From a virus: a stretch of 61,891 nt of DNA. The stretch lies in IMG/VR virus record IMGVR_UViG_3300028198_000001, positions 1-61,891 of that record, one strand, 5' to 3'. Within the stretch, counting starts at the first letter, position 1; every line of letters starts with the position of its first letter. The notes beneath the pieces were generated by a model that did not search any database, was not told the DNA's origin, and saw only the letters and a list, made by a program, of their open reading frames with translations. A program made the position numbers and the translations under genes. This document shows, one piece after another, positions 14,883 to 56,460 of this stretch.

Positions 14883-15091
14883 TCTCTAATCCTATTAAAA
14901 TATCTTCGTATAATATAAATTCTAATAATAGATGAAATGGTAAATATTGTTGCTAATTGAACATTTTCAAATAATGTAATCTCTATATCATATACAGGAA
15001 ATATTAATAACTGTATCATAATAGCCACAATTAAACCAGACCCAACTGTTATAAAAGATTCAAATAAACTCTGTATTTTACTCTGTTTCAT
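14879..15091 (-). CDS. Two-span membrane protein (70 aa), DUF7220-like
   Basis: Two hydrophobic segments (about 16-33 and 44-58) separated by FPVYDIEITLFEN, and a basic C-terminus RRYFNRIRE. The opening MKQSKIQSLFESFITVGSGLIVAIMIQ and the FP(V/L)(Y/F)(D/G)I motif fit a small phage membrane family I recall as DUF7220. Function is unknown. It overlaps the gp46 stop by 4 bases. Confidence 0.6.
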   Translation of the reverse strand: MKQSKIQSLFESFITVGSGLIVAIMIQLLIFPVYDIEITLFENVQLATIFTISSIIRIYIIRRYFNRIRE

Positions 15092-16788
15092 TCTCTAGTT
15101 ATTTGTGTAAAGTTTTTAACTTTTTCTACTATCAGCTTATCTGGAAACTTATCATCAAGTATATCCAGTTTATGTGATATGATAAACAGATTAGTATTCT
15201 TTATTATATTAAACAACTTCATTAAGTCATCTACACCAGCTTGGTCTAAACTAGCATCAAACACTTCATCTAATATAAGAAGATTCACATTAACTGAATT
15301 TCTCATAGATGCTATATCTCGCCAAGTTAACAACAAAGCTATATCAATACGTTTCTTCTCTCCTTCTGAAAAGGAATAATAAGAAAATTGATCTCTATGT
15401 CTACTCTTAATAGTTTCTTGGAAGTTCTCATCCAACTGGAAGTTCACAAAGAAATCCATATCCTTTAGATAATCATTTACATGCTTATTGATAACTGGAA
15501 GATACTTCTTAATGATTCGTGTCTTAATACCAGTATCATTTAATATGTTACTCAATACATCATAATAAAATTTCTGGTCTACATATTGAAACCTTGTAGA
15601 TTTAGAGTCATCCAATTCTTTATTCAATATATTCATAGATTCTTTTTTAATTTCAACTTGAAAAGATTCCAAATCAGAACTTAACTTTTGTATAAAAGAA
15701 TTATGAGCTTGGATGTTACTTAACTTCTGTACTACCTGTGTTTCTTCTTTCTGTATATCTTGGGTGTATTTGGATATCTCTCCTATCCTATCATATACTT
15801 TCTCAACCTCTTTTTCAATTTTATATAAACCTTCATTCATTTCCTCAATATCGTCTGATATGTCATTACACTTATGTTTCTTAAAATTCTCCAGAATATC
15901 CTGTTGGCAAGTAGGACATATTTGATTTTTCTCATAAAATTTTTTATCCTTAGTTAATTTTTTTAAATTTTTAGATATCTGAGAATGATACTTATCTAAC
16001 TCTTGGTTTTTCTTTTCAACTGTAGCTTTATCTTGAATAGAGTTTAACAAAACATCTATACGTTCTTGATGTACCTCTATCTCTTTATTTAGTTTTGCAA
16101 TCTCCTGTTCTGTTTCTTTAATCTTATCCAAATCAGATTTACGTTTCTGTTTGGATTCTTCTTCCATAGCTTTCAAATGTTTTTCTTGTAATGATATCTT
16201 TTCCTGAAGGAGTTTAATCTCATAATCAACTTCACCCATTTCTTCTTTTAAAGTTATTACACGATCTTTCAATAGAGTTTTCATTACAGAGAATATACCA
16301 ATGTCCAGTATATCTTCAATAATGATTCTTCTATCATTAGCTGTCAATTGCATAAATGGAACAAATGAAGCAGAGCCTAATACAACAATCTGTGTGAATG
16401 ACTTAAAGTTTAGCTTCAATACTTTTTCTTCAAGATACTTTTGATAGTCCATAGACTTAGCATCTTGATTTACTAAAATACCGTTGTGGTAAATCTCAAA
16501 CAGATTTGGTTTAATACCACGACACACTTTCCATTCAGCCGAACCAACAGAAAATTCAATCTCTGTTAAAGTATCTCTCTCATTAACAGAATTAACTAGC
16601 TGACCTTTATTAACTTTTTTGAATGGTTTTCCAAACAGAGAAAAAGTAATAGCATCAATCAAAGTAGACTTACCAGCACCATTCTTACCAACCACTAACA
16701 TCATGGCTTCTTGGTCTAGTTTTACTTCAATGAATCTATTACCTGTTGCTAAGAAGTTTTTCCACCTAACTGTTTTCAGTCGTATCAT
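15088..16788 (-). CDS. 46: Recombination endonuclease ATPase subunit (T4 gp46, SbcC/Rad50-like)
   Basis: A 566-residue SMC-like protein: Walker A GKNGAGKST (34-42), two long coiled-coil arms, a zinc hook CPTC (291-294) at the apex, the ABC signature SFSEGEKKR at about 460-470, and Walker B LLILDEVFD. With gp47 it resects DNA ends for recombination-dependent replication and helps degrade host DNA. Length fits the gp46 family. It overlaps the HAD gene by 23 bases. Confidence 0.96.
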   Translation of the reverse strand: MIRLKTVRWKNFLATGNRFIEVKLDQEAMMLVVGKNGAGKSTLIDAITFSLFGKPFKKVNKGQLVNSVNERDTLTEIEFSVGSAEWKVCRGIKPNLFEIYHNGILVNQDAKSMDYQKYLEEKVLKLNFKSFTQIVVLGSASFVPFMQLTANDRRIIIEDILDIGIFSVMKTLLKDRVITLKEEMGEVDYEIKLLQEKISLQEKHLKAMEEESKQKRKSDLDKIKETEQEIAKLNKEIEVHQERIDVLLNSIQDKATVEKKNQELDKYHSQISKNLKKLTKDKKFYEKNQICPTCQQDILENFKKHKCNDISDDIEEMNEGLYKIEKEVEKVYDRIGEISKYTQDIQKEETQVVQKLSNIQAHNSFIQKLSSDLESFQVEIKKESMNILNKELDDSKSTRFQYVDQKFYYDVLSNILNDTGIKTRIIKKYLPVINKHVNDYLKDMDFFVNFQLDENFQETIKSRHRDQFSYYSFSEGEKKRIDIALLLTWRDIASMRNSVNVNLLILDEVFDASLDQAGVDDLMKLFNIIKNTNLFIISHKLDILDDKFPDKLIVEKVKNFTQITRE

Positions 16789-17095
16789 TGTTTACATCAA
16801 AAAAATGTTTATCATTGATAGCTTTATCATCAACCCATATATCATATAATGGTTTTCCACAACTAACAGAAGTGGCTTTAACTCCCCATCCTTCTAATTG
16901 TTTTTTTGTATATTCTCTCCAATCTTTTCCTGAACCACTACCCCTTGCTGTCCAGTAATGTATCTCATGTCCCTCATCATATAACTTATTCATCATCTCA
17001 ATTCGTTCTTTATGAGGTTTATGATTTGGATAATCTGGTTTTGGTCTAACTTGTGTACATATCGTTCCATCAATATCTACCATGTATTTACTCAT
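16766..17095 (-). CDS. HAD-like phosphatase (109 aa)
   Basis: A short HAD-fold hydrolase: motif I VDIDGT (7-12, nucleophile and acid aspartates), motif II threonine in YWTARG, and a late DIWVDDKA with the metal-binding acidic pair. The size resembles phage nucleotidase or polynucleotide 3'-phosphatase domains. Its place between gp47 and gp46, overlapping both, suggests a role in processing DNA ends or nucleotides; this is inferred from context only. Confidence 0.8.
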   Translation of the reverse strand: MSKYMVDIDGTICTQVRPKPDYPNHKPHKERIEMMNKLYDEGHEIHYWTARGSGSGKDWREYTKKQLEGWGVKATSVSCGKPLYDIWVDDKAINDKHFFDVNNDTTENS

Positions 17096-18170
17096 CAGTA
17101 TTTAATGCCTCATCATACAAGATTTGTAATAGCCTCTTTACTTTATTTCGTTCCACACGTTTCTCATGATCTATTGGCATACTATCCACATACTCCTCAA
17201 GAAACGTAGCCGTGTTACCAACTTCTACATCTTCACCTTCTTCTAGGTTTGAATATCTAGCAGTATACTCAGACAAGTCCTCCAGTATGATTAAGTCTGT
17301 AGGATTTGATTTATACATTCTATCAAGAAAAGTTTCAAACTCAGGTATCTTAGTTTTATTTTCTACAATAAGTTTGACTATCTTATTTGTATAGAAGCTA
17401 GTATCTAATGACCTAAAATTGTTCTCCCAGTTTTCATCATCATAATATATCTTTTCAAACAAACGATAATCATTCTTTATAAACTCAATCTCTCTGGTTT
17501 CTGTATCAAAGATATGAAATCCTTTTGGGTCATCGTAGTCATTCCAAGTAATCTCATATGGAGCTCCAAGATAATGTATGTTACCTTTACTTGACTTATG
17601 ATGATAATGTCCAGAAGCAACAAACTCATATCTATTAAAGATACTTGGTTGAAGTCCCGTACCAGCTACATAGTTTTTATACATAGCAAACCCTTCAACT
17701 TCCAAATGTCCAAAGGCAACTTGTGATTTAGAGTTCTTGATAAACCCCATTGTCCCTTCATAGTTCTCAGAGTTTATCCAAGGAATCAAATCAATATCTG
17801 TACCATCAAGGGTTAATGTATGAGCAGCTGGATACACATTCACATTATTATAATGTCCATATAATAGAAAAGAACTATTAACATTATTCGTGTTTCTATA
17901 ATATGTTGAATGGTTGCCTACAATAGAATGTAATTTAATATTATTTTGCCACATAACATCAAAATAATATTTGCGTACTTTATCCAATATAGCAAAGTTG
18001 ACATACTTTCGGCGATCAAAGGTATCACCCAAATCTATTACTGTATCTATGTTATTTTCTTTTAAGTATGGAAAGAACTGATTGGTATAAAACTTTTCTA
18101 TATACTCATTAAAAGACTGACTATCACTCTTACCACCGAAATGTTGATCTGTAATCAATGCTACTTTCAC
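17088..18170 (-). CDS. 47: Recombination endonuclease nuclease subunit (T4 gp47, SbcD/Mre11-like)
   Basis: A 360-residue calcineurin-type phosphoesterase: LITDQHFGG (motif I), DLGDTFDRR (II), IVGNHSTYY (III) and ASGHYHH (metal-binding GHxH). It is the nuclease partner of gp46. I choose GTG at 18170 over the in-frame ATG at 18209: the family begins (M/V)KVALITDxH, an RBS-like GGGAGAAG precedes the GTG, and the GTG overlaps the TGA of the upstream zinc-ribbon gene (GTGA), a typical coupled junction. Confidence 0.94.
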   Translation of the reverse strand: MKVALITDQHFGGKSDSQSFNEYIEKFYTNQFFPYLKENNIDTVIDLGDTFDRRKYVNFAILDKVRKYYFDVMWQNNIKLHSIVGNHSTYYRNTNNVNSSFLLYGHYNNVNVYPAAHTLTLDGTDIDLIPWINSENYEGTMGFIKNSKSQVAFGHLEVEGFAMYKNYVAGTGLQPSIFNRYEFVASGHYHHKSSKGNIHYLGAPYEITWNDYDDPKGFHIFDTETREIEFIKNDYRLFEKIYYDDENWENNFRSLDTSFYTNKIVKLIVENKTKIPEFETFLDRMYKSNPTDLIILEDLSEYTARYSNLEEGEDVEVGNTATFLEEYVDSMPIDHEKRVERNKVKRLLQILYDEALNTDE

Positions 18171-18319
18171 TTGTATTTCTTCTCCCACGTATGATGACAT
18201 CTTGTACATTCAAAAACTTGTATTGCTTTTCCATCTGAACCATGTTTTACATCAAAGCTACAATTGGTAAACGCATAGTTTGGCTCATGCACTTTACATC
18301 TAGGACATTCTTGAAACAT
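18167..18319 (-). CDS. Small zinc-ribbon protein (50 aa) upstream of gp47
   Basis: ATG at 18319 opens a 50-codon frame with two CxxC knuckles, CPRC (5-8) and CTRC (38-41), giving a complete four-cysteine ribbon followed by HHTWEKKYK. Its stop overlaps the gp47 GTG start. Similar ribbons occur in transcription and replication factors; the function here is unknown. It begins 14 bases after the proline dehydrogenase stop. Confidence 0.7.
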   Translation of the reverse strand: MFQECPRCKVHEPNYAFTNCSFDVKHGSDGKAIQVFECTRCHHTWEKKYK

Positions 18320-18332
18320 TAATATGTTATAA

Positions 18333-19229
18333 TCATCTGACACTTACCATCTCCTTTACGATATTAGAAACCATGAATTTTAAATTCTTAAACTCACGCA
18401 ATCTTCGTAAAGTATATGGAAGCCAATCTGCACCAAATGGAACATATAGTCTAACACAATAACCTTGGTTTAACAAGGAAGAACTTAGATCGCGGCGTAT
18501 CCCGTATAACATCTCAATAAACAAATCATCCTTTTTCACATTAAACCTATTTAAAAAACCAAGTATATCATCTAATAACTGCTCATCATGTGTTCCCAAA
18601 GCTGGTAGTGGTGTTGTATCATTCTTGTAATGATAATATGAACGACTTCTATCCGATATCAAACGAAAAGCCTGTTTGATATAAACATCATGTAATAAAT
18701 CTTTTCTATTATATGCTTTTGTAATATGTTCTTTGTAAGCACCCTTCACCAATCTAACAGATATTTCTTTATCCATCATAAGAGATAAATCTTTTTCTGT
18801 TCTGTATAGATTTGATTGAAGAGCTATACCAATATTGGGAAAGTGTTTTCTTAACTTTGTAGCCAAGTCAATAGTATCTTGTGTAACGGATGAATCTTCC
18901 ATATCCAAACGCACTGTCATTCCATGAAGATATGCTCTATGCACAATATCATTCAATCGTTCATAACACTTATACTTATTTAATAACAATCCTAATTGAG
19001 TTGGTTTAATGGATATGTCTAATGGATAGTTAACCAACGCATAATATTCAATTATGTCAATATACTGTCTTACAGCTTTATCACAATCCTCATCAGTTTT
19101 ACTAATCTCACCAAGATAGTCAATCGTTATATCATAACCATCAATAATAAGTTTACTGATTACAGGTATGGCAGAGTCAAAATCATGCCCAGCAATAAAT
19201 CTCTTTGCTAAGGGATATAAAAATTTCAT
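18333..19229 (-). CDS. Proline dehydrogenase (monofunctional, FAD-dependent)
   Basis: A 298-residue protein, the usual length of monofunctional bacterial PRODH. Diagnostic motifs run in family order: SIKPTQLGL (73-81), RLDMED (107-112), LQSNLYRT (137-144), RLVKGAYKE (159-167), GTHDEQL (212-218), EMLYGIRRDL (239-248), RLYVPFGADW (260-269) and the substrate-binding pair in LRRL (274-277). The enzyme oxidises proline to pyrroline-5-carboxylate and passes electrons via FAD to the quinone pool. No P5C dehydrogenase is seen. It overlaps the gp55 stop by 4 bases (ATGA), so it is expressed with replication/late-switch genes. It probably feeds respiration or nitrogen metabolism during infection. Confidence 0.9.
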   Translation of the reverse strand: MKFLYPLAKRFIAGHDFDSAIPVISKLIIDGYDITIDYLGEISKTDEDCDKAVRQYIDIIEYYALVNYPLDISIKPTQLGLLLNKYKCYERLNDIVHRAYLHGMTVRLDMEDSSVTQDTIDLATKLRKHFPNIGIALQSNLYRTEKDLSLMMDKEISVRLVKGAYKEHITKAYNRKDLLHDVYIKQAFRLISDRSRSYYHYKNDTTPLPALGTHDEQLLDDILGFLNRFNVKKDDLFIEMLYGIRRDLSSSLLNQGYCVRLYVPFGADWLPYTLRRLREFKNLKFMVSNIVKEMVSVR

Positions 19230-19753
19230 TTCATAAATCTCTCAATACCTCTAATCTTATTTTTTTTCTTTTGTGATTTGTATGGTGATTCAGCATACTT
19301 CTCATGTGTATGCAGGTACTCTATATATGTAGTAACTTGTTTCCTGTTATCTTCACCAGCCACACTTACTTGTTGCATAATACCAGACCGTTCCACATAC
19401 AAATACTTCAAATGCATCTGTTTCTTTTCTTTCTGTATTCTACGAATAAACGCATGATGAATGATTTGTGTAAAATAAGAAAAAGGATTCTTAGATTTCT
19501 CTGGATTAAAATTATGAGCATAGAGTAAACAGTTCTCTATACCATCACTCACTAGGTCATCACGAAATGTATAGTTAATGAAGTTGGGTTTCCATGCCAA
19601 GTTCTCTGATATCTTGAGAAAACACTCTGCCATATATGATGTACTAGGTGGGTCAGGATCTTCAACTTCTCTTGCATCCATTACCCATTGTTTCCACTTT
19701 TTCATTTCCTTAAAAAACATTTCATTATCTACATAGTGTTTTGGGTTAGCCAT
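19226..19753 (-). CDS. 55: Late-transcription sigma factor (T4 gp55)
   Basis: A 175-residue highly diverged sigma factor. The central part DDLVSDGIENCLLYAHNFNPEK (about 81-102) and NPFSYFTQIIHHAFIRRIQKEKKQ match the gp55 family's sigma region 2. With gp45 it directs host RNA polymerase to TATAAATA late promoters, which are present before structural genes in this window. It abuts the dUTPase gene with a one-base overlap. Confidence 0.93.
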   Translation of the reverse strand: MANPKHYVDNEMFFKEMKKWKQWVMDAREVEDPDPPSTSYMAECFLKISENLAWKPNFINYTFRDDLVSDGIENCLLYAHNFNPEKSKNPFSYFTQIIHHAFIRRIQKEKKQMHLKYLYVERSGIMQQVSVAGEDNRKQVTTYIEYLHTHEKYAESPYKSQKKKNKIRGIERFMK

Positions 19754-20220
19754 TACTTAACTCCAGTTGAACCAAGACCACCGCCTCGATTTTTAATTTC
19801 AGTTTCAGCATCATGTTCATCTTTAATAATATCAACCATCTCAGATTCAATTATTGGTTTAATAACTAGTTGTGCTATTCTATCACCCTTCTTTACTTCA
19901 TAAGGCATATGATTATGATTAATCATTATTATTTTTAATTCATCACGATAACCAGAATCAATAGTGCCAGGTGTATTCAATACTTGCAATCCATGTTTTG
20001 CAGCTAGACCAGAACGTGACCTAACTTGTCCTTCATACCCGTATGGTATAATAATAAACAGACCGGTTCCTATCGTTACCCAACTAAAGGCTCGAATCCG
20101 AATATCCTCATTAGAACGAATATCCATACCAGCATCACCACGATTCTTAAATGTTGGTAATGGATTATCAGTTTCTCTATAAATTTTAATCTGTAATTTA
20201 CCTGTCATTTCATTAATCAT
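19753..20220 (-). CDS. dut: Deoxyuridine triphosphatase (dUTPase)
   Basis: A trimeric-type dUTPase with all five motifs: DAGMDIRS (1), RSRSGLA (2), NTPGTIDSGYRDEL (3, with the base-recognising tyrosine and catalytic aspartate), GDRIAQLVI (4) and RGGGLGSTG (5, glycine-rich lid). It hydrolyses dUTP to dUMP, keeping uracil out of DNA and feeding thymidylate synthesis. ATG at 20220 is preferred for its RBS (AGGA), but 20229 or 20208 are possible. It overlaps the upstream zinc-ribbon gene. Confidence 0.96.
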   Translation of the reverse strand: MINEMTGKLQIKIYRETDNPLPTFKNRGDAGMDIRSNEDIRIRAFSWVTIGTGLFIIIPYGYEGQVRSRSGLAAKHGLQVLNTPGTIDSGYRDELKIIMINHNHMPYEVKKGDRIAQLVIKPIIESEMVDIIKDEHDAETEIKNRGGGLGSTGVK

Positions 20221-20425
20221 TGTATTCAATTCCTATTGGTGTTGATTTCATACTACTAACAGAATATTCTGTTTCAACTACAGCGGGTCTGTTAATTGGA
20301 AAAGTTTGAATGCGTTTGCATTCTTCACATTCATAATAACTAAACCACTTATGGCCACTAATGCCTTCAGCTATCTGCCTCGATGTTTTCATCTGGCAAC
20401 TCGGACACTTCCTTTTCGTTTTCAT
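20213..20425 (-). CDS. Small zinc-ribbon protein (70 aa)
   Basis: CPSC (8-11) and CEEC (33-36) with an aromatic-rich linker (HKWFSYYECEECK) form a zinc ribbon; a basic N-terminus MKTKRK precedes it. Function is unknown, perhaps nucleic-acid binding. It is sandwiched between a GTG-started basic gene (59-base overlap) and dut (8-base overlap). Confidence 0.68.
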   Translation of the reverse strand: MKTKRKCPSCQMKTSRQIAEGISGHKWFSYYECEECKRIQTFPINRPAVVETEYSVSSMKSTPIGIEYND

Positions 20426-20531: not shown

Positions 20532-20546
20532 TTCTCTATCTCCTAT

Positions 20547-22058
20547 TTATACTGTTACTTGTTTAAAATTATAATCAAACTTTTCATCAGCATATATCTT
20601 AACACGTTCCCTCCAATGTTTAAGTCCATAATTATCTCGTTTCTTCCAATGTAAATCATCAACTATATCATATAATACTGCTTTGTTATTCATATCATCC
20701 AACCTCAATATTCTACCAATGGATTGTAAATTTCTAATCTTGGCTTTGTATGGATGAGCAAAAATTAATGATTGTAGATTCTTTATATTTACACCTGTAG
20801 ATAAGACACCTGATGATGCTATGATAACTGCGTCTTTACATTTTTCAGTTAATGCTCGAATAGACTCTCTCTCATCAACATCAGTTTCACCAGCTATAAA
20901 AAATATTTCTCTTGGATATGACTTTCCAGCAACTTCGTTTATAGCCATTTTTCTTTCCATCATCTCCTTTAATACTTTACCATGCTTCTCTACATAATTA
21001 AACAGAATCAATGTATTGCCTTTTTGATCTAAAGCCAGATTACATATAAAGTTATTTCGTTTTGTATGTGCTACAATAAAATCTATTTCTTCTTTATATG
21101 TTGCTTTCTTTTGTGCCTCTCGTTCAACATCTGGATACTGCATCAACAAACATTGTATCTTCAATTCAGATATATGTTTATCTTTCATCAACTGTTTAGA
21201 TGTTACAGCCTTATAGACTTGTCCAAATAATCCTTCCAATACAAATTGATGTGTCTTGGATTCAGTTAATGTTCCAGTAGTTCCAAATCTATATCGGCAA
21301 CTCACCATCTTTTCTAATATACCTTTCAATGATACAGCACTACATAAATGTGCTTCATCACCAACTACCATTCCAAACTGTTTAAAGAAAGGAACTCCAA
21401 GTCTAAACAATGACTGCCATGTAGAAATGACAATCTGTTTATCTGTTTTCTTATCTCTACCAGAATATATCATATGACATTGGCTCTTACCATCCCACTT
21501 ATCGTGTGACGAATAATCCAGAAAATCATTATACATCTGTGTCACCAGATTAGTTGTTGGCACAAGTATTAGTATCTTATCTTTATCCAAAAAATTCTGA
21601 TGCCATCTTATTAAAGAGTAGATAACCAGACTCTTTCCAGAAGATGTTGGTGAAAGCAAAAGAGCTCTCTCTTTCTTCACACAATGTGTAAATGATTTTA
21701 TTTGATAATCTCTGGGTATGATTGGTTTATGTTTACAATGAAGATTTAAAGCTTTAAAGAAATCTGCAATATTTTCATCTGATAAACCAGATAGAGGTGT
21801 GATACTAACAACATCACTTTTAACTACATATTGTCGTTGCATAGCGAACTTCATAAGATGGTCATATAGACCCATATAAAGTTGTTGCGTTTTTATATTG
21901 AATAGACGTATCTTGCCATCCCACATCTTGTTTCGATACTGTGGCATGAACTGAAAGCCTGGGACTTGAAATGCGAAAAATTCATTTAATTCTTGAGCGA
22001 TATGTCTTTCACAAGAAACCATCAAGAATGTTTCATTCATCTTACCAACTGTTATCAT
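20547..22058 (-). CDS. uvsW: DNA helicase UvsW
   Basis: A 503-residue SF2 helicase with the T4 UvsW layout: N-terminal domain with KMWDGKIRLFN, Walker A SPTSSGKS (136-143), DEAH (234-237), GTTGT motif III and SIGRILRLDD motif VI. It branch-migrates and unwinds R-loops and D-loops, switching the phage to recombination-dependent replication. It follows uvsY by 3 bases. Confidence 0.95.
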   Translation of the reverse strand: MITVGKMNETFLMVSCERHIAQELNEFFAFQVPGFQFMPQYRNKMWDGKIRLFNIKTQQLYMGLYDHLMKFAMQRQYVVKSDVVSITPLSGLSDENIADFFKALNLHCKHKPIIPRDYQIKSFTHCVKKERALLLSPTSSGKSLVIYSLIRWHQNFLDKDKILILVPTTNLVTQMYNDFLDYSSHDKWDGKSQCHMIYSGRDKKTDKQIVISTWQSLFRLGVPFFKQFGMVVGDEAHLCSAVSLKGILEKMVSCRYRFGTTGTLTESKTHQFVLEGLFGQVYKAVTSKQLMKDKHISELKIQCLLMQYPDVEREAQKKATYKEEIDFIVAHTKRNNFICNLALDQKGNTLILFNYVEKHGKVLKEMMERKMAINEVAGKSYPREIFFIAGETDVDERESIRALTEKCKDAVIIASSGVLSTGVNIKNLQSLIFAHPYKAKIRNLQSIGRILRLDDMNNKAVLYDIVDDLHWKKRDNYGLKHWRERVKIYADEKFDYNFKQVTV

Positions 22059-23340: not shown

Positions 23341-24129
23341 ATGGAACTTAATAAAACAGTCATAGGATTCTTCATTTTTCTGCATCTTGGTGCTTTACTA
23401 GCTTTACATCCTGCTACATTCTCTTGGTGTGCAGTCGCTACTATGTTGGTGATGTATTGGTTAACAGCCTCGATTGGAATATGTTTTGGTTATCATAGAT
23501 ACTTAACTCACAAAGGAATGTCTATGCCGAAATGGTTAGATTATACTATTGTGTTCTTAGGTACTCTGGCCTGTCAGAATGGCCCAATCAAATGGGTAGC
23601 TCATCATAGAATGCATCACCGATTTTCAGATAAAGAAGAGGACCCACATGATGCCAGTCGAGGATTTTGGTGGTCACATATCGGATGGATGCTTTATCAT
23701 AGAGATAGAATAGATAACCCCAAATCAATAGAATTATATACTAAGGATATTTACGATGATAACTTTTACCAATTCTTAGATAAATATTTTATCCACATTC
23801 AAGTAGCTTTAGGGATTATATTCTATTTAATAGGAGGTATCTCTTGGGTAGTATGGGGAATCTTTGTACGGATAGTATTGGTGTATCATGTGACTTGGTT
23901 AGTCAATAGTGCTTGTCATATGTGGGGATATAAAAACTTTGAACTAAAAGATGATTTATCCACAAACTGTTGGTGGAGTGCAATATTAAGCTTTGGTGAA
24001 GGGTGGCATAACAATCATCATAAATATCCAAAGAAAGCTAAACATGGTTTAAAGCTTTATGAGATTGATTTAACTTGGGTTTCTATTTGGGTATTATATA
24101 AGTTAGGTTTAATAAAGAGTATAAAGTAA
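23341..24129 (+). CDS. Membrane fatty-acid (acyl-CoA type) desaturase
   Basis: A 262-residue protein, the only plus-strand gene. It has the three histidine boxes of acyl-CoA/acyl-lipid delta-9-type desaturases, HRYLTH (52-57), HRMHH (89-93) and HNNHH (223-227), an extra H193 in NSACHMWG, and four hydrophobic spans (about 8-25, 31-49, 66-80, 152-186). It introduces a cis double bond in membrane fatty acids using a di-iron centre and would alter host membrane fluidity or lipid supply during infection. RBS GAGGAAATATATA precedes the ATG. It lies opposite to its surroundings, between a promoter at 24160-24195 and the genes that promoter appears to serve, suggesting acquisition as a cargo gene. 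Confidence 0.92.
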   Translation: MELNKTVIGFFIFLHLGALLALHPATFSWCAVATMLVMYWLTASIGICFGYHRYLTHKGMSMPKWLDYTIVFLGTLACQNGPIKWVAHHRMHHRFSDKEEDPHDASRGFWWSHIGWMLYHRDRIDNPKSIELYTKDIYDDNFYQFLDKYFIHIQVALGIIFYLIGGISWVVWGIFVRIVLVYHVTWLVNSACHMWGYKNFELKDDLSTNCWWSAILSFGEGWHNNHHKYPKKAKHGLKLYEIDLTWVSIWVLYKLGLIKSIK

Positions 24130-43587: not shown

Positions 43588-44739
43588 TTAGTATTGTGAA
43601 CCAGCATTAGAACCAACATTACCTATTAAATTCCCAACATCAGTAGCGTTTGCGTCTGATACCGTACTAAATTTATCAATTACATCAATCCATCCATCTC
43701 CACCGCACGCATATCCATGTGTTGTTGAAGTAACACCACACATATTACTCCTTGCAACTGTTAAATCTCCTGCATCAGTAGCATTTTGTGTCCCAGTATC
43801 AAAACTAAATTTATTTATTACAGCAATGGTTGCACCACCAGCAGCATAACCATGAGTCGTTGATGATACCTCAGCGTGCGATCCAACAGAATTTGTCAAA
43901 TCTCCTACATCAGTAGCATTTGTTTGTGATGCAAATGGAAATTTCTCAATTACATCTATACCCGGATATGGATAACCTCCAGCACAATACCCATATGTTG
44001 CTGAGTTGTGACCTGACATCTGACCTTTAGCAGCTGTCAAGTCTGCCCAATCTGTAGCATTTCCGTCTGTAGTAAAGCTAAATCGTTCAATTACATTTGT
44101 AGTTGGATAACTACCACATACAAAACCATAATTTTCTGATGATTGTCCTGCAAGCTCACTTTTTGCAACTGTTAAATTTCCTACATCGGTTGCGTTTCCT
44201 CCACCTGCAAATGACCACTTATCTATTACATCTCGCAACCCACCACCACCACCACTTGGATATTGGTATCCTCCAGAACAGTAACCATGTGTTTTGGATT
44301 TCTGTCCACAAGGGTTATCACTTCTACCATCAGAAAGATTACCAGCATCAGTACTATTTCCATCAGATGTCAAACTAAATTTTTCTATAGTTTTTGAATC
44401 ACTTCCATCTGCACCACCAACAGCATAACCATAAACAGATCCTTGAAAATTATATGGTGACACATCCCCACTACCTGCACCTACATTAGTCCATACGTTA
44501 GCACCAGCGGTTGCATCAGTACACACATACATTTCCCCACTTGTACTATTCAACCATTCTGTTCCTAGAGTTTTATTAGAATCTATTGCTGGGTCACTTG
44601 CACTTGTCAAGGGACCTGGCTTGTTTAATAGATTTGCACCAGTACCTGCAGGTATCTTTGCGTTGGCATCTAACTTAACAAGATTGTTGGCTCCACCAAC
44701 ATCTTCTATCATTGAAATGTCTACTTTATTTAATGCCAT
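43588..44739 (-). CDS. Propeller-type tail adhesin, paralogue 1 (383 aa)
   Basis: N-terminal module: MALNKVDISMIED, then NLVKLDANAKIPA and the conserved TSGEMYVCTDATAGANVWTN. The C-terminal two thirds consist of six kelch-like repeats of about 45 residues, each opening (Y/H)GYxxGG and ending in a (V/I)I(D/E)KFSF...NATDVGDL motif. The second repeat has a GGGGG insertion. The end is GSNAGSQY. Six repeats suggest a six-bladed beta-propeller, a fold often used for ligand binding. It has the shortest shaft module of the group. Confidence 0.78.
   Translation of the reverse strand: MALNKVDISMIEDVGGANNLVKLDANAKIPAGTGANLLNKPGPLTSASDPAIDSNKTLGTEWLNSTSGEMYVCTDATAGANVWTNVGAGSGDVSPYNFQGSVYGYAVGGADGSDSKTIEKFSLTSDGNSTDAGNLSDGRSDNPCGQKSKTHGYCSGGYQYPSGGGGGLRDVIDKWSFAGGGNATDVGNLTVAKSELAGQSSENYGFVCGSYPTTNVIERFSFTTDGNATDWADLTAAKGQMSGHNSATYGYCAGGYPYPGIDVIEKFPFASQTNATDVGDLTNSVGSHAEVSSTTHGYAAGGATIAVINKFSFDTGTQNATDAGDLTVARSNMCGVTSTTHGYACGGDGWIDVIDKFSTVSDANATDVGNLIGNVGSNAGSQY
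44481..44523. repeat. Conserved junction sequence, copy in paralogue 1 (also at 45648, 46986, 49407, 52983)
   Basis: The sequence ctacattagtccatacgtta followed by gcacc recurs without change at 44481, 45648, 46986, 49407 and 52983, and continues as a near-identical 43-base block. More diverged copies are at about 48150, 57770, 60290 and 61600. It encodes the (T)DATAGANVWTNVGAG linker between the fibre shaft and the variable repeats. Such long identity among genes whose flanks differ suggests recent exchange. Confidence 0.85.
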
Positions 44740-44748
44740 TTGTTTTCC

Positions 44749-46020
44749 TTAGTATTGACAAGTTCCCTGATAACCTACTGTTCTTGTTAAATTTCCCACA
44801 TCAGTCGCATCTCCATCTGTACTAAAGCTGAACTTGTCGATTATATTATAATAAGGGTTTCTACCACCTATTACATATCCGTATGTAGTTGATGAGGTTC
44901 CTGCTGGTTGATAACGAGCTTGAGTTAAATTTCCGACATCCGTAGCATCGCCATCAGAAGCAATTGCCCATTTATCAATAACATTTGAGCTAGAACCTGA
45001 ATAACCACCACCCAAATATATATATGTTGAAGAACTAGAACCTCCACCTGCACCACTCCTGCCAACGCTTAAATTTCCCACATCCGTAGCATCGCCATCA
45101 CTACTAAAAGAATATTTATCTATAATGTTTGAGTTACCGGAACGATAACCACCCATAGCATAACCATAAGATTCAGATGTTCCACCTCCTACTTCACCTC
45201 CAGCAACAGTTAAATTCCCAACATCACTGCTACTAGATGTTGCTCCAAACGCAAATTTATCTACGACATCTGTATAAGTAGGAGAAGCACTTTCACCTCC
45301 ATTCATATATCCGTGTGTGGAAGAACTTGAACCACCAGCCGTTCTTCTTGAATGAGTTGTATCACCAACATCAGTAGCAGTTCCACCACTAACCATAGCA
45401 AACCTATCTATGATATTTGAATAAGGGCCACTAGCACCACCTTGCATATAACCATAACTGGTAGTAAAGTCCGTTGCCCCAGCCGAACCAAATCTTGCTA
45501 CTGTCAAATCTCCTACATCAGAAGAATCACCATCGGATGTAAAGCTAATTCTTTCAATATCGGTTTGATATGTGCCATTTGTTCCACCACAAGCAAAACC
45601 ATACGATTCACCTTGAAATTGTAACTTTATATCACCTGTCCCTGCTCCTACATTAGTCCATACGTTAGCACCAGCCGTTGCATCAGTACATATGTAAACT
45701 TCTCCTGAAGTTTTATTAACCCACTTTGCACCAAGTGTAGAATTTGTATCTATAGCTGGATCACTCGTACTTACAGTAGGTCCCGGAACATTAGTTAAGT
45801 TTGTAGCACTCAATGCTGGCAACTTTGCGTTAGCATCTAATTGTAATATTTGATTTGCACCAGTACCAACATCTATTCTTGCTGTTGCAAGAGTACCTGT
45901 AGTAAAAGCAGAACCAGACAGAGCCGTGACTTGACTACCATCAATAGCTGGTATCTTACTGCTACCATCTAATACGATAGTATTGTTTGCTCCAACTGTA
46001 TTTGTTACATTAACTGTCAT
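44749..46020 (-). CDS. Propeller-type tail adhesin, paralogue 2 (423 aa)
   Basis: Starts MTVNVTNTVGANN; the shaft module is longer than in paralogue 1, with two LDANAKLPA-type units (about 15-90), then the CTDATAGANVW junction near 120. Six repeats: YGFACGG, YGYMQGG, HGYMNGG, YGYAMGG, YIYLGGG, YGYVIGG. It ends GYQGTCQY. Repeats 4-6 are the most regular (NIIDKYSFSSDGDATDVGNL), suggesting recent duplication inside the gene. Role inferred as receptor binding. Confidence 0.78.
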   Translation of the reverse strand: MTVNVTNTVGANNTIVLDGSSKIPAIDGSQVTALSGSAFTTGTLATARIDVGTGANQILQLDANAKLPALSATNLTNVPGPTVSTSDPAIDTNSTLGAKWVNKTSGEVYICTDATAGANVWTNVGAGTGDIKLQFQGESYGFACGGTNGTYQTDIERISFTSDGDSSDVGDLTVARFGSAGATDFTTSYGYMQGGASGPYSNIIDRFAMVSGGTATDVGDTTHSRRTAGGSSSSTHGYMNGGESASPTYTDVVDKFAFGATSSSSDVGNLTVAGGEVGGGTSESYGYAMGGYRSGNSNIIDKYSFSSDGDATDVGNLSVGRSGAGGGSSSSTYIYLGGGYSGSSSNVIDKWAIASDGDATDVGNLTQARYQPAGTSSTTYGYVIGGRNPYYNIIDKFSFSTDGDATDVGNLTRTVGYQGTCQY

Positions 46021-46029
46021 TTGTTTTCC

Positions 46030-47256
46030 TTATAATTGAATACTACCATTTCCAGGTTCACCTCTATTATGTGTCAAGTTACCTACATCAGTAGCAGTAT
46101 TATCTGAAGCAAAAGCAAATTTTTCTATTGTATCTCTATAGTACTGTCCTTGAGCACTATCACCTTTAGGAAAACCACCCATAATATATCCATGTGTAGA
46201 TGATGCATTGCCCATAGCATTTTGAGAAGTCACAGTAAGAAGTGTGCTTCCACTTGCAACGGTACTACTATCTGATGCTGTAGACATTTTATCTATTCTG
46301 GTTATACTAGGTGCAACCATTGTACCCATACACCAAGTATAACCATCTGAACTACAAGTTGCAGAAGGTATACCAGAATGAACAAGATCACCGATATGAT
46401 GTGTTGCTGTTTCTGATGAGAAACTCCACTTATGAATATATTCAGAGTTAGTACCAGCTGCTACTCCTCCCATACTATAACCATGTGATGAAGAACAAGC
46501 ACCTTTGGCATAATCTCTGCCATTAGGTAAAAGATCACCAACATTAGTTCCACCTCCATCGGTTGCAAATGAAACTTTTTCTACTTTTTGTAATGGTGTA
46601 GTCACCGCAACTCCACCTTGTACCCAACCATGAGTTTCTGAAGTACAACCACCAGCTGAACCTTGATTTGTAGATAAATCACCTACATCAGTAGTATTAG
46701 CTGGTGCAGACATACCAAACTTTTCAATCCAATTCTGATAACCACTATGGTACCCACCCATACAATAACCATGAGTTGTAGAAGCTGCACCTGCAAGACT
46801 ATCTCTAATAGATGTTAAATCACCTTGGTCTGTACTATTACCATCTGAAGCAAAAGAATTTTTATCTATACTCGCAACATCATAATAAGGGCCGGGATTG
46901 TTGGGTCGCCAATATCCACTCGCACAGAAATATGATGTTGTACAATTAACAAAATGAAACGGTGCCACATCACCTGTACCTGCTCCTACATTAGTCCATA
47001 CGTTAGCACCAGCAGTTGCATCTGTACATATATAAACTTCTCCTGAAGTTGTATTATGCCATTCAGTACCAACACCACCAGAAGGATTTGTGTCTATTGC
47101 TGGGTCACTAGCTGACGCTGTTACACCCGTGGCAACACCAGTTATCTGACTACCATCTACGGCAGGGATATTACCAGAACCATCATATACTAAAAGTTTA
47201 CTGGCAGTAATACCAGTATTCTGCATCATTGAAATGTCAATTTTAGTTAATGCCAT
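46030..47256 (-). CDS. Propeller-type tail adhesin, paralogue 3 (408 aa)
   Basis: Starts MALTKIDISMMQN. After the junction motif comes VAPFHFVNCTTSYF, identical to the first repeat of paralogue 6 at 52054-53256. Six repeats, the fifth altered (DGYTWCMGT) and carrying TRIDKMSTASDSSTVASGSTL, again shared with paralogue 6. The C-terminus GEPGNGSIQL departs from the usual QY end. It is therefore a close sister of paralogue 6, 5 kb away. Confidence 0.78.
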   Translation of the reverse strand: MALTKIDISMMQNTGITASKLLVYDGSGNIPAVDGSQITGVATGVTASASDPAIDTNPSGGVGTEWHNTTSGEVYICTDATAGANVWTNVGAGTGDVAPFHFVNCTTSYFCASGYWRPNNPGPYYDVASIDKNSFASDGNSTDQGDLTSIRDSLAGAASTTHGYCMGGYHSGYQNWIEKFGMSAPANTTDVGDLSTNQGSAGGCTSETHGWVQGGVAVTTPLQKVEKVSFATDGGGTNVGDLLPNGRDYAKGACSSSHGYSMGGVAAGTNSEYIHKWSFSSETATHHIGDLVHSGIPSATCSSDGYTWCMGTMVAPSITRIDKMSTASDSSTVASGSTLLTVTSQNAMGNASSTHGYIMGGFPKGDSAQGQYYRDTIEKFAFASDNTATDVGNLTHNRGEPGNGSIQL

Positions 47257-47265
47257 TTGTTTTCC

Positions 47266-48537
47266 TTAGTATTGTGAGCCTCTTAAACCTCTACGATTAG
47301 ATACAAGATTACCTACATCTGTTCCTATACTTTGTGAAGCAAATGCAAATTTACCAATATGGTTTGACTGAGTATCACCACCTCCAGCAACATAACCATG
47401 TGTTTTTGATGATGCGCCTGCATTATTCGTAGCACCAGTATGTAAGTCACACCAATCTGTAGAATTACCGTCTGTTACAAAACTAACTTTATGAACCGTT
47501 TCTGGTGCCGGCGATGCATTATTACCACCCATTAAATAACCATCTGTTGCAGTTTGACCTGCAGACCCGTAGCCAAAGTTTTGTGAACCCGGAATAGTAC
47601 CAATTAATGCAGCTGTGGTATTTGAAGCAAACGAAAATTTATCTATATTTGCATTACCACCACTTCCGTCCATTCCATAACCATGTGTTGCTGAGTTAGT
47701 ACCAACACAACCATAACGACCCGAATATAAATTTCCATGTGTTTCCTGTGCGCCTTCTGAAGCAAAAGACATACGTCTTATTCCAATATTTTGGGAATAT
47801 CCACCTAAAGTATAAACGTGTGTCGTGGAAGATGCACCACCCATAGAATTATCAGTAGTTATTAAAGAACCTACTTCAGTCCCAGTTGTATTTGAAGCAA
47901 ATGCAAATTTTTGTATTTTGTTTGATGAGCTCGGACCTGTATAACCTCCAGCATGATAACCATGAGTTGTTGAATATCCAGAACTACCTTCAGAAGAAAG
48001 TTCAAATAAATCTCCGTGATCTGTAGCATCTCCATCTGTAGCGAAACTAAATTTTTCAATTCTGTCAACCGTACCTGGCAAGTTACCACCAGCAGCGAAA
48101 CCATAATTCTCACCACCACCATGAAAAGGTGCCACATCACCTGTCCCTGCTCCAATGTTAATCCATACATTAGCACCAGCCGTTGCATCAGTACATATAT
48201 AAGCCTCTCCTGAAGTTGTGTTATGCCACTCTGAACCAACACCACCAGAAGGATTTGTATCTATTGCTGGGTCACTTGCATTCTTTGTAGCACCCGGAAT
48301 ATTTGTTAGTAGACTTGCATCAAGTGCTGGCAACTTTGCGTTAGCATCTAACTGTACAAGTTTATTTGCAGTAGTACCAACATCAATACGAGCAATTGGA
48401 ATTGTACCAGTAGCAATGTTACCAGCTGCAATAGTGGTAACTTGACTTCCATCGACAGCTGGAATCTTTCCAGTACTGTCTAAAAACAGAAATCTATTTG
48501 CTCCTACTGATGTTCCATCTACAATTATATCTGCCAT
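47266..48537 (-). CDS. Propeller-type tail adhesin, paralogue 4 (423 aa)
   Basis: Starts MADIIVDGTSVGANRF, similar to paralogue 8 (MGDVIIDGLTGANRL). Shaft units FLDSTGKIPAVDGSQV and QLDANAKLPALDASLL, junction CTDATAGANVWIN. Six repeats: YGFAAGG, HGYHAGG, HVYTLGG, HGYGMDGS, DGYLMGG, HGYVAGG. It ends GLRGSQY. The nucleotide junction block is more diverged than in paralogues 1-3. Confidence 0.78.
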   Translation of the reverse strand: MADIIVDGTSVGANRFLFLDSTGKIPAVDGSQVTTIAAGNIATGTIPIARIDVGTTANKLVQLDANAKLPALDASLLTNIPGATKNASDPAIDTNPSGGVGSEWHNTTSGEAYICTDATAGANVWINIGAGTGDVAPFHGGGENYGFAAGGNLPGTVDRIEKFSFATDGDATDHGDLFELSSEGSSGYSTTHGYHAGGYTGPSSSNKIQKFAFASNTTGTEVGSLITTDNSMGGASSTTHVYTLGGYSQNIGIRRMSFASEGAQETHGNLYSGRYGCVGTNSATHGYGMDGSGGNANIDKFSFASNTTAALIGTIPGSQNFGYGSAGQTATDGYLMGGNNASPAPETVHKVSFVTDGNSTDWCDLHTGATNNAGASSKTHGYVAGGGDTQSNHIGKFAFASQSIGTDVGNLVSNRRGLRGSQY

Positions 48538-48552
48538 TTGTTTTCCTTTTTC

Positions 48553-49794
48553 TTAATATTGCGTTCCTGCCGCCCCACGCCTTGCTACGGTTAAATCCGC
48601 AACGTCTGTCGAGTTCCCATCTGACGAATAATTATATTTCTCGATTACATTATGAGTTTCCCCTCCTGCGGAGTACCCATACGTTTCAGAAGCCGAACCA
48701 GACCGTTGCCTATTGCTTGCCAATAGATTCCCAACATCAATTGAATTTCCATCAGAAGAAAAACTAAATTTCTGAATCACATTAGAACCTGTCCCACCGT
48801 GAATATATCCGTAGTCTGCCGATGATGTTCCTGTAACATAATCAAGATTACCTAACAAGTTGCCCACATCGGTTGAATTGCCATCGCTTGAAGTGGAACC
48901 TTTATCAATAATATCATAGGAGCCAAATCCACCAGAGCAATAATAATGAGTCGTAGAGGACGAACCGCCTGCCCAATCTCTGGCTTGCGTTAAATCCCCA
49001 ACATCAGTCGCGTTTCCATCAGATGAAAAAGAATTTTTATCAACAACATCATTAGTAGGCCGCCCCATGTGGTAGCCGTAGTCTTCACTAGAGGCACCGC
49101 AAATCCCTGAATTGCCAACGGTCAAGTCACCAATGTCTGCCGCATCACCATCCGATGAAAAAGAATGTTTGTCGATAACGGTATGACCTCCATCACCACC
49201 ACCACCGTTGTATCCATAGTCTGAGGATGAACAACCAGACCTACCATATACTGATATGGTCGCATTACCAACATCTGTGGCATCGCCTTCCGATGAATAC
49301 GAATATTTGTCTATTACGTTTCCAAACCCACCTGCGTAACCGTTAGAAGCATAGCCATATTGTGTCCCACCAAATGACCACGGCTGTACATCCCCACTAC
49401 CTGCTCCTACATTAGTCCATACGTTAGCACCAGCGGTTGCATCAGTACATATGTACATTTCACCACTTGTACTATTTAACCATTCTGTTCCAACACCACC
49501 TGAGGGATTTGTAGAAATTGTAGGATCGCTTGCAGAGATTGTTGCAGATACTATACCAGTTAATAGACTTCCATCAATAACAGGAAGATTTCCAGAGCCA
49601 TCTAGTTGTACCAGTTTATTTGCTGTTGTTCCAACATCTAAACGTGCTGAAGCAATAGTACCACTAGCAACATTGGAAGCATTCAGAATTGTTATCTGAC
49701 TACCATCTTTTGCTGGTATCTTACTATTAGTATCAGCAACCAATATTTGATTGGCACCGTTTACTTGACTATCTGATATAGAAATTATTGCCAT
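48553..49794 (-). CDS. Propeller-type tail adhesin, paralogue 5, with G+C-richer repeat part (413 aa)
   Basis: Starts MAIISISDSQVNGANQ. Shaft and junction resemble paralogue 1 at the DNA level, but the repeat region (about 48553-49390) uses more C/G-ending codons: hand counts of 60-base stretches give about 35-57% G+C against about 30-35% nearby. Six repeats: YGYASNGY, YGYNGGGG, YGYHMGRP, HYYCSGGF, YGYIHGGT, YGYSAGGE, with SFSSDGNATDVGDL units. It ends GAAGTQY. This looks like a recently acquired propeller joined to a resident shaft. Confidence 0.78.
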   Translation of the reverse strand: MAIISISDSQVNGANQILVADTNSKIPAKDGSQITILNASNVASGTIASARLDVGTTANKLVQLDGSGNLPVIDGSLLTGIVSATISASDPTISTNPSGGVGTEWLNSTSGEMYICTDATAGANVWTNVGAGSGDVQPWSFGGTQYGYASNGYAGGFGNVIDKYSYSSEGDATDVGNATISVYGRSGCSSSDYGYNGGGGDGGHTVIDKHSFSSDGDAADIGDLTVGNSGICGASSEDYGYHMGRPTNDVVDKNSFSSDGNATDVGDLTQARDWAGGSSSTTHYYCSGGFGSYDIIDKGSTSSDGNSTDVGNLLGNLDYVTGTSSADYGYIHGGTGSNVIQKFSFSSDGNSIDVGNLLASNRQRSGSASETYGYSAGGETHNVIEKYNYSSDGNSTDVADLTVARRGAAGTQY

Positions 49795-51387
49795 TTAGAA
49801 AGTTCCACCGTCAACTACATTTGACCATGCTGGTGTTCCACTATTTGATTTAAGAAAATAACCATCAGTACCAGCTGCTGTAACTTGTATTGTTCCAGTA
49901 CCATTACCATATAATATTCCATTAGATGTAAATGTTGATGCACCAGTTCCACCAAATCCAACTGATAATTGTGCAGGAGTTGTCCAAGTCCCACTTGTAA
50001 CTATTCCAACACCTGTTGCACTTGAAGTATTAAGTCCTGTTCCACCATAGGTTGCACTAATTGCTGTACCATTCCAAGTCCCAGTTCCAATCGTTCCTAC
50101 AGTTGTTATTGCAGCTTGACCTGTCCATGCAGTATCAATAACAATATTATCTGATGTAACAGTAATACCAGTACCAGTATTAACATACATAGTATTTCCA
50201 GTTTTACTTAAACCATCACCTGTTGTTATTTGTCCTGTACCAGAAAACTGAGAAAATAAAATTTGTGTTGTTCCAAAAGTAATGGCAGTATCTTGTGTCA
50301 TTACATAACCATTATCTGCATTAGTAGTTCCACCTTCACAAAAGAAGAATACACCAGAATTTAATTCGCCTGCTGTATCTGCATCAGTTGCTCTGGTTAA
50401 AACCCAGTTGGAAGAACCATCACCAACAGTAGTTACTTTGTAAATACCATTTGCAGTATTACCAGTTTGGTCTTTAACTAATACTCTATCATTGAGTGAA
50501 AGTGCTACACCATCAATTGTAATTGCAGCTTGTGTTCCTGTGTTAGTTAAAGTTGCACCAACACCACTAACACCATTATTATATGTAGTACTTAGGTTTG
50601 TTGTGGTTGCAGCTTTAACCGAATCTTTTACTTCTAATCCAGTTAAGTTATTATCAACATATGTTTTAATTGCCAATGCACTTGCAAGAGTTGTATGAGT
50701 TCCTGCAACAGTTGATAAGTCTGTATCAAGAGCAGTAATACCATCTAATAAATTTAACTCGGTTGCACTTGCAGTTACTTGCGTTGCAGAACCACTTGTA
50801 CCAATCCAAAATTCTGATGTCTTAACAACATCAATATGTTTATTTGTATCAAGAACTACTGCTTTTCCTGCATAAGCATTTCCAACAGTCGTATCTAAAT
50901 AATTTAATTGTGCTGTTGATGCAGTACAACCATCAAGTTTATTTAATTCTCCTGAGTCTGATGTAACCCCAGCAAGAATATTTAACTCAGCAGTCGTTGA
51001 TGTAACACCATCAAGTTTATTTAATTCTGTTGCAGATACAGTTACTTGTGTTGCCGAACCTGTTGAACCAAGATAAAGTGCATTAGTTTTAATTGCATCT
51101 ACATGAGAATTGTTATCTGTTAGTATTGCAGATGCCGCAGTTAAAGTTCCATTGGCATGATCTAATAGTTTAGTAAAATAAGAACCACCGACAATTACAG
51201 CTGTCCTAGTTCCACCCAAACCATCTGCATGACCAATAAATAACTTGCCTAATCCTTGTTCGTCACCACTACCATCATCTGACGAATAAGAATACCCTAA
51301 TTCACCAGTAGTAAGAGTACCACCACTAATATGAGAATTAGGTATTGTGTTATTCGTTGATCTTTTTATTTGTATTTGATTGGCCAT
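49795..51387 (-). CDS. Long tail fibre with tandem shaft repeats (530 aa)
   Basis: A fibre of different type. The head module MANQIQIKRSTNNTIP ... GELGYSYSS ... LFIGHADG is a common phage fibre attachment domain. The shaft has tandem ATELNKLDGVT-type repeats (about 110-225: ATELNKLDGV, TAELNILAGV, SGELNKLDGC, TAQLNYLDT, ATELNLLDGI). The C-terminal half is beta-rich with NGIYKVTTVGDGSSNWVLTRATD. The last residues TPAWSNVVDGGTF resemble phage fibre tips. Confidence 0.8.
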   Translation of the reverse strand: MANQIQIKRSTNNTIPNSHISGGTLTTGELGYSYSSDDGSGDEQGLGKLFIGHADGLGGTRTAVIVGGSYFTKLLDHANGTLTAASAILTDNNSHVDAIKTNALYLGSTGSATQVTVSATELNKLDGVTSTTAELNILAGVTSDSGELNKLDGCTASTAQLNYLDTTVGNAYAGKAVVLDTNKHIDVVKTSEFWIGTSGSATQVTASATELNLLDGITALDTDLSTVAGTHTTLASALAIKTYVDNNLTGLEVKDSVKAATTTNLSTTYNNGVSGVGATLTNTGTQAAITIDGVALSLNDRVLVKDQTGNTANGIYKVTTVGDGSSNWVLTRATDADTAGELNSGVFFFCEGGTTNADNGYVMTQDTAITFGTTQILFSQFSGTGQITTGDGLSKTGNTMYVNTGTGITVTSDNIVIDTAWTGQAAITTVGTIGTGTWNGTAISATYGGTGLNTSSATGVGIVTSGTWTTPAQLSVGFGGTGASTFTSNGILYGNGTGTIQVTAAGTDGYFLKSNSGTPAWSNVVDGGTF

Positions 51388-51399
51388 AGTTTATCCCTT

Positions 51400-51645
51400 T
51401 TACATTGTTCCTGCATCAAAAGCTAAATCAGTAAATGCTTTTAATTCATATCTTGATGTATTTGAGTTCCAAATTAATAAAGAATCATTTGGTGCAGAAG
51501 ATGAATCAACATCAACTGCGGCATTAACTGTTATAGTTCCTCGTACTTCTGTAGAACGAACAACCTGTGAAGCTGCTATACCCGGTTGTGTTACTTTAAT
51601 AACATTCGGAGAACCAGCAGCTGCTTGTACAACAACATTTGCCAT
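51400..51645 (-). CDS. Small structural protein of the fibre region (81 aa)
   Basis: Ends LLIWNSNTSRYELKAF, the (L)(V)Y(D)xxTxxYxx(K)xL strand motif found in phage fibre and baseplate beta domains. The rest is Ser/Val/Ala-rich. It shares one base with the upstream gene (51645) and precedes the long fibre at 51387. It may be a baseplate accessory subunit. Confidence 0.55.
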   Translation of the reverse strand: MANVVVQAAAGSPNVIKVTQPGIAASQVVRSTEVRGTITVNAAVDVDSSSAPNDSLLIWNSNTSRYELKAFTDLAFDAGTM

Positions 51646-51983: not shown

Positions 51984-52010
51984 TGTTTATCTCTTATCGG
52001 TGTTTATGTG

Positions 52011-56450: not shown

Positions 56451-56460
56451 TATATCTCCC

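Follow-up and report, generated by a model that had tools for sequence, protein, structure and literature searches.

A putative auxiliary proline dehydrogenase gene between the late sigma factor and recombination nuclease genes of T4-like phages

Results

The locus and its gene neighbourhood

The DNA analyzed here (the window) is IMG/VR virus record IMGVR_UViG_3300028198_000001, 61,891 bases long, which is a fragment and not a complete genome. A sequence-only reading had placed a proline dehydrogenase (PRODH) gene at positions 18333-19229 without stating the strand. We confirmed an open reading frame (ORF) at this position, which lies on the minus strand, begins with ATG and encodes 298 aa; the plus strand of the same interval is full of stops. 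The gene belongs to a run of minus-strand genes, listed here in the order of transcription:

20547-22058, minus: UvsW helicase, first gene of the conserved block (PF21241 UvsW_N, 2.7e-15; phrog_16)
19753-20229, minus: dUTPase, upstream in the co-directional block (PF00692, 1.9e-23; phrog_135)
19226-19753, minus: gp55-like late sigma factor (phrog_234 late sigma, 6.4e-53)
18333-19229, minus: PRODH, 298 aa, a predicted TIM-barrel flavoenzyme (PF01619, solved-structure matches, AlphaFold2 model, mapped residues)
18167-18343, minus: 58-aa ORF with two CxxC-type motifs (zinc-ribbon-like) and a GTG start; no Pfam match
17088-18209, minus: gp47, SbcD-like recombination nuclease subunit (phrog_100, 1.7e-103)
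16766-17095, minus: HAD-like 109-aa ORF between gp47 and gp46 (phrog_1238, 3.9e-27)
15088-16788, minus: gp46, SbcC-like recombination nuclease subunit (phrog_77, 5.6e-166)

Two small ORFs lie between uvsW and the dUTPase gene, and the block recurs in relatives as uvsW-orf54-ZnR70-dUTPase-gp55-PRODH-ORF58-gp47-gp46. The TGA stop of gp55 and the ATG of PRODH share 4 nt (ATGA), as the sequence-only reading had pointed out, and an overlap of 4 or 1 nt is present in every contig examined that carries PRODH at this site. At its 3' end, PRODH overlaps the 58-aa ORF by 11 nt; this ORF adjoins gp47 in relatives both with and without PRODH. The earlier description of PRODH as preceding gp47/gp46 is right about the genes, since gp55, gp47 and gp46 are all confirmed with PHROGs, but it passes over the 58-aa ORF before gp47 and the 109-aa ORF between gp47 and gp46. 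The GC content of PRODH is 31.9%, compared with 32-34% for uvsW, gp55 and gp47 and 29.8% for gp46.

A candidate late-promoter motif for the PRODH block, TATAAATA at 20544-20551, was rejected because its position overlaps the stop codon of uvsW and only 23 of 100 loci retain it. Elsewhere in the window, a fatty-acid-desaturase-like gene (23341-24129, plus strand) lies within an otherwise minus-strand block and is variably present there among relatives, and the interval from about 43588 to 61783 (minus strand) holds some ten large ORFs that resemble one another and share repeated 'DATDVGNLT...GY..GG' segments; they are probably tail-fibre or adhesin paralogues.

Identity, fold and active site of the protein

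The Pfam family PF01619 (Pro_dh) matches the protein with E=1e-28 and 101.1 bits (cut-off 27) over profile positions 5-269 of 278. The closest solved structures are the PRODH of Thermus (2ekg, E=1.2e-39) and then that of Deinococcus (4h6q, 1.1e-34). The top NCBIfam model is the Thermus equivalog ProDh_Thermus (NF045947), which the protein matches with 182 bits against a cut-off of 500 and to which, as a narrow equivalog, it does not belong. The AlphaFold2 model has a mean pLDDT of 88.3 and superimposes on 2ekg, 2g37 and 4h6q (Thermus and Deinococcus) with TMq values of 0.82-0.84, placing it in the PRODH barrel fold. The 298 aa form a single domain, which lacks the fused P5C/glutamate-semialdehyde dehydrogenase domain that marks the bifunctional PutA (P5C, delta-1-pyrroline-5-carboxylate), and there is no Aldedh match anywhere in the record. 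Sequence and model together make a strong case for assigning the product of 18333-19229 as a mono-functional PRODH.

The functional residues of Thermus PRODH map onto the phage protein as follows: E65 to E41, K99 to K75, D133 to D109, R184 to R159, K187 to K162, Y190 to Y165, T226 to T213, H227 to H214, D228 to D215, Y275 to Y262, Y285 to Y272, and R288/R289 to R275/R276. The catalytic and substrate set (the base Lys, the Asp, the Tyr pair and the Arg pair) is thus present as K75, D109, Y262, Y272, R275 and R276, and the FAD-binding set (Arg184, Lys187, Thr226 and His227 of Thermus) as R159, K162, T213 and H214. In the known enzymes, Thr226 and His227 contact the FMN phosphate and Lys187 the AMP phosphate (PMC5335563), and residues Lys329, Tyr540, Tyr552, Arg555 and Arg556 of PutA contact proline (PMC10651016). 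The motifs cited in the sequence-only reading are all found, RLVKGAYKE at 159-167, EMLYGIR at 239-245 and LRRL at 274-277, the last containing the arginine pair R275/R276. The PutA and Thermus residue numbers were matched on the basis of the family and of motif context. None of the mapped catalytic and FAD residues varies among the 55 viral PRODHs compared (39 from group 1, 10 from group 2 and 6 from group 3, as defined below), with gaps only where contigs end. The sequence-only reading had named loss of FAD- or substrate-binding residues on structural modelling as a refutation; every mapped residue is kept. Because the tyrosine equivalent to PutA Y540 is retained as Y262, the sequence argues for proline rather than hydroxyproline as the substrate.

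The N-terminus begins at helix alphaC, where LAKRFIAG aligns with LVRRYVAG of Thermus; helices alphaA and alphaB are absent. The description of the protein as full-length is therefore accurate for the catalytic barrel plus helix alphaC, but not for the two N-terminal helices of Thermus PRODH. Because it starts at helix alphaC, the phage protein corresponds to the Thermus form from which helices A and B were removed (deltaAB), which is fully active and tetrameric (PMC6017737). The phage protein has Phe at the position of Thermus Y35, and the Y35F substitution has little effect on the Thermus enzyme (PMC6017737).

Distribution in the T4-like clade of the window

PRODH relatives were found on about 70 IMG/VR contigs: a scan with the single sequence gave 35 contigs, a profile scan gave 66, and a third scan added a few group-2 contigs. 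Group 1 is the T4-like clade of the window, in which gp23 is present. Its PRODH genes occupy either site A, between gp55 and gp47, or site B, which follows gp46 and a 73-aa ORF and precedes hsp20. Among unique contigs with gp55 in view, PRODH lies at site A in 26 and at site B in 7. Another class of 26 unique gp55-bearing contigs lacks PRODH at site A with site B out of view, and about 10 of these form a distant outgroup. One contig, L100, lacks PRODH at both sites, and L097, L102, L103, L108 and L113 have none at site A. PRODH is dispensable, since some close relatives lack it.

A FastTree phylogeny of uvsW+gp47 unites the site-B contigs in a single clade and nests the PRODH-less contigs among carriers; therefore gain, loss and relocation of the gene have all occurred. 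The PRODHs of L016 and L045 belong to the subclade of the window, on a core-gene background that differs. This conflict between the PRODH and uvsW+gp47 trees, seen for L016 and L045 against L028 and L031, indicates exchange between phage subclades by recombination.

The median dN/dS of PRODH is 0.25 (range 0.08-0.39 over 704 pairs, which are not independent; Nei-Gojobori method), indicating purifying selection, and lies above the values for gp55 (0.09), gp47 (0.15) and uvsW (0.08). Lying between phage core genes (the gp55/PRODH/ORF58-gp47 junction) on independent contigs and maintained by selection, PRODH has the attributes of an auxiliary metabolic gene (AMG).

Other phage groups and the origin of the viral PRODH clade

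Two further phage groups hold PRODH at genomic places other than those seen in the clade of the window. Group 2 (L061-L069, L077, L083, L226, L231 and L234) has neither gp23 nor a family-B DNA polymerase in the records tested. Its 178-kb member G028 is a tailed phage, because it encodes a terminase large subunit and a DnaB-like helicase. The PRODHs of group 3 (L074-L076, L078, L079, L081, L082 and L084) are more divergent, full-length copies being 35-40% identical to that of the window, and gp23 was seen only in G037. More distant matches at 24-36% identity (L256-L270), the majority of which neighbour an aldehyde dehydrogenase gene, were left outside the groups and may be cellular DNA or other viruses.

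In a maximum-likelihood tree of 104 rows, all sampled viral PRODHs (groups 1-3) are separated from 58 cellular PRODHs by a branch with support 100/99. The cellular sample comprised the phylum of a Marinimicrobia metagenome-assembled genome (MAG), the phylum of L041, the class Acidimicrobiia, a few plasmids and two solved structures, and a closer cellular donor beyond these groups is possible. The branch to the viral node is long (0.47). Scored with the viral profile, the best cellular sequences reach about 196-204 bits, groups 1-2 reach 325-570 and group 3 reaches 182-214; because the last range overlaps the cellular one, group 3 joins the viral clade by the tree and not by raw score. In the sample, the viral PRODHs form one distinct clade, common to at least three phage groups.

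A search of 50,697 phage records gave only five PRODH matches, all apparently cellular. Microcystis phage MaAM05 and the S. aureus records were rejected as cultured-phage precedents, since their PRODHs fall among the cellular ones and the surroundings look chromosomal. In two deposited 'phage' genomes, MW495066.1 (L037) and MG543995.1 (L038), the PRODH regions resemble bacterial chromosome (FliM, PomA and MurJ; a riboflavin operon), and their PRODHs group with the cellular enzymes.

Some public phage PRODHs, among them those of MaAM05 and the S. aureus records, are probably mis-assembled host DNA or recent functionless passengers. For the gene of the window, such an origin is extremely improbable: PRODH has an identical placement between core genes on dozens of independent contigs, its frame overlaps its neighbours, it is under purifying selection and its GC content is typical of the phage. 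The conserved gp55/PRODH/gp47 junctions refute this explanation.

Companion genes and missing pathway partners

Several genes of amino-acid and nitrogen metabolism accompany PRODH in the viral records:

L061:7069-8001, L064:8824-9738, L065:3399-4394 and L067:7069-8004: genes of the ornithine-cyclodeaminase/mu-crystallin (OCD) family, PF02423, overlapping PRODH
L285:7527-8633 and 22 contigs (L301-L321, L325): lysine-6-/saccharopine-dehydrogenase-like gene, flanked by a subtilase-like gene and a primase-like/thyX/RNR block
L285:13363-14631 (G019, IMGVR_UViG_3300020477_001932; T4-like clade of the window): UrtA, with a 90% identical copy in L305

The OCD-family gene occurs in 8 of 45 PRODH records, all in group 2, with two of these records apparently representing a single virus. 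The gene overlaps PRODH whichever of the two comes first, by 1 nt in L061, 4 nt in L067 and about 20 and 26 nt in L064 and L065, respectively. Of the viral contigs that carry the closest PF02423 copies, 9 of 12 have PRODH within 10 kb, versus none of the 23 with distant copies. These proteins could not be called ornithine cyclodeaminase proper, as their best model is archaeal alanine dehydrogenase, below its cut-off.

A saccharopine/lysine-6-dehydrogenase-like gene (PF16653/PF03435) occurs in 13 of 48 PRODH records; in the group-3 contigs L074-L076 and L078 an orthologue directly follows PRODH, and in several group-2 records the gene stands beside an aldehyde dehydrogenase. In the clade of the window, G019 and the 22 contigs that share its gene order have the gene in their replication region, which lies past the left end of the window and so is not visible in it. 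Among the 50,697 phage records, the group-1 version has no relative and the group-2 version one weak relative. The nearest structure to the protein is 3ABI, an L-lysine 6-dehydrogenase (PMC10413350); with a match of only E=1.8e-8 and a poor AlphaFold2 model (pLDDT 58), we did not adopt that enzyme as its firm identity.

The co-occurrence with a lysine-dehydrogenase-like gene hints at C6 (pipecolate-type) substrates and, together with the long branch between viral and cellular PRODHs, gives some ground for supposing that the ORF, though intact, encodes a protein with a changed role, such as an enzyme acting on pipecolate or hydroxyproline, or a flavoprotein that has no catalytic activity. This is distinctly improbable, given that the mapped substrate-carboxylate, base, ring-packing and FAD residues, including Y262 and Y272, match those of L-proline enzymes.

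UrtA, the substrate-binding protein of the urea ABC transporter, is identified in G019 by TIGR03407 (582.9 bits, cut-off 492.75) and has an apparent signal peptide. In group 2, a PF10014 2OG-Fe dioxygenase, of a family with free amino-acid hydroxylases, lies beside or near PRODH in L062, L069, L083, L231 and L234. Adjoining viral PRODH (L074:6643-8001, L064:6712-7812) are a tyrosine-phenol-lyase/tryptophanase-like gene and a histidine-decarboxylase-like gene (NCBIfam 489.9 bits, cut-off 305).

The remark that P5C dehydrogenase is absent is true of the window, which is a fragment and gives no Aldedh match. Aldehyde dehydrogenases do occur in 9 of 45 PRODH records, in groups 2 and 3; they were rejected as P5C dehydrogenases because NCBIfam ranks other aldehyde dehydrogenase models above that for P5C dehydrogenase, all below cut-off. 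P5C reductase was found in none of 34 records, a weak absence since the records are fragmentary. With neither a P5C dehydrogenase nor a reductase identified in the phages, handling of P5C would fall to the host.

PRODH without an identified P5C dehydrogenase is also what would be expected of a proline-P5C cycle, in which the viral enzyme would work against host ProC as a redox valve, passing NADPH electrons to the quinone pool and regenerating NADP+ with no net use of proline. Cycles of this kind are known to operate in eukaryotes and in some bacteria. We regard a cycle as unlikely here: the 34 records hold no phage P5C reductase (though that of the host could serve), and the OCD-family and lysine/saccharopine-dehydrogenase-like companions point to net amino-acid turnover.

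Discussion

Proposed function of the phage PRODH

We propose that the gene is a phage AMG encoding a mono-functional L-proline dehydrogenase that feeds host quinones, with P5C passing to glutamate via the host, and give this reading a probability of about 0.68. By analogy with its family, the enzyme would bind FAD and oxidise L-proline to P5C, and the electrons would pass to the quinones of the host membrane. P5C, or its open form glutamate semialdehyde, would then be converted to glutamate by a host P5C dehydrogenase, as suggested by the absence of a phage enzyme. The gain to infection would be respiratory electrons together with glutamate, which would supply nitrogen and carbon for making nucleotides and amino acids. 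Judged only by the coupling to gp55, PRODH is probably made in middle to late infection. The sequence-only reading had likewise seen a real PRODH serving as an AMG, with electrons going to respiration, and the fold, the invariant residues, purifying selection and the occurrence in three phage groups all support it.

Proline is an abundant osmolyte and nutrient for marine bacteria, and the benefit to the phage might lie in either property. Proline being a common osmolyte and the products of PRODH being reactive, the enzyme could drain the osmolyte pool of the host, or P5C and superoxide could act on the host in lysis timing or defence. Such a role appears quite unlikely, as no other osmolyte-degrading gene was recognised beside PRODH, nothing in its coupling to gp55 and the replication block suggests a part in lysis, and the companion genes are related to amino acids and nitrogen. 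Because OCD-family, lysine/saccharopine-dehydrogenase-like and UrtA genes occur in the same viruses, proline oxidation more probably serves to mobilise the free amino-acid pool, yielding nitrogen, glutamate and electrons, than to remove an osmolyte.

A broader reading, which we hold to be possible but doubtful, is that a virus-specific module of amino-acid catabolism, centred on PRODH, is common to several unrelated groups of marine phages. The module would consist of PRODH plus an OCD-family and/or a lysine-6-/saccharopine-dehydrogenase-like enzyme, sometimes with an aldehyde dehydrogenase and UrtA. If this were true, free basic amino acids and proline would be turned into ammonium, glutamate and quinol, a form of nitrogen scavenging akin to phosphate scavenging by phage PstS.

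AMGs and the PRODH family are already known; what appears new is a distinct viral PRODH clade that recurs in several phage groups with amino-acid-catabolism companions. Proline catabolism would become one more part of metabolism over which marine phages seem to take control, and the separate viral clade could serve as a marker for proline oxidation by infected cells in ocean metatranscriptomes. The pairing with amino-acid-degrading genes predicts that nitrogen and electrons for phage production are drawn from the free amino-acid pool of the host.

Host clues

TerL and gp47 are 42-55% identical to their nearest relatives, which come from cyanophages, the OM43 methylophage Melnitz and marine viruses obtained from single cells; this is too distant for host assignment. 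In a species-representative genome set, two contigs of the clade of the window are binned as L039 (PBHE01000046.1, an Acidimicrobiaceae MAG) and L040 (DEAO01000004.1, a Marinimicrobia MAG). Neither taxon was accepted as the host: both contigs belong to the phage clade of the window, the phyla disagree, and the binning looks like contamination.

Comparison with known systems

The phage protein resembles the mono-functional PRODHs of Thermus thermophilus (2g37/2ekg) and Deinococcus radiodurans (4h6q) in barrel fold, mapped residues and similar length, but differs from them in being only about 31-33% identical, in lacking helices A and B and in belonging to a separate viral clade. With the bifunctional PutA, which joins PRODH to a glutamate-semialdehyde dehydrogenase, it shares active-site residues and, by prediction, the PRODH chemistry; unlike PutA, it has no fused dehydrogenase or DNA-binding domain, and identity in structural matches is 19-25%.

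The pairing of OCD-family and PRODH genes has a bacterial precedent in proline catabolism, because a Cytobacillus plasmid (L220) carries OCD, PRODH and PruA in a row, an operon of Gram-positive bacteria. The group-2 phages are similar in overlapping an OCD-family gene with PRODH, but no PruA was identified in the phages, the gene order varies, and the clade of the window has no OCD-family gene in the parts seen.

Like the AMGs of other T4-like marine myophages (cyanophages, methylophage Melnitz and pelagimyophages), the gene of the window would be a host-derived metabolic enzyme set in a T4-like core, although none of those records has its type of PRODH. We found no description of a phage PRODH in the open-licence literature, where PRODH is listed only in two haptophyte giant viruses, HeV RF02 and PkV RF02 (PMC11953307). 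These share an annotated virus-encoded PRODH with the window but are eukaryotic giant viruses and not phages. Among viral models, a protein of Mimiviridae sp. ChoanoV1 gives the best match in structure, at 17% identity.
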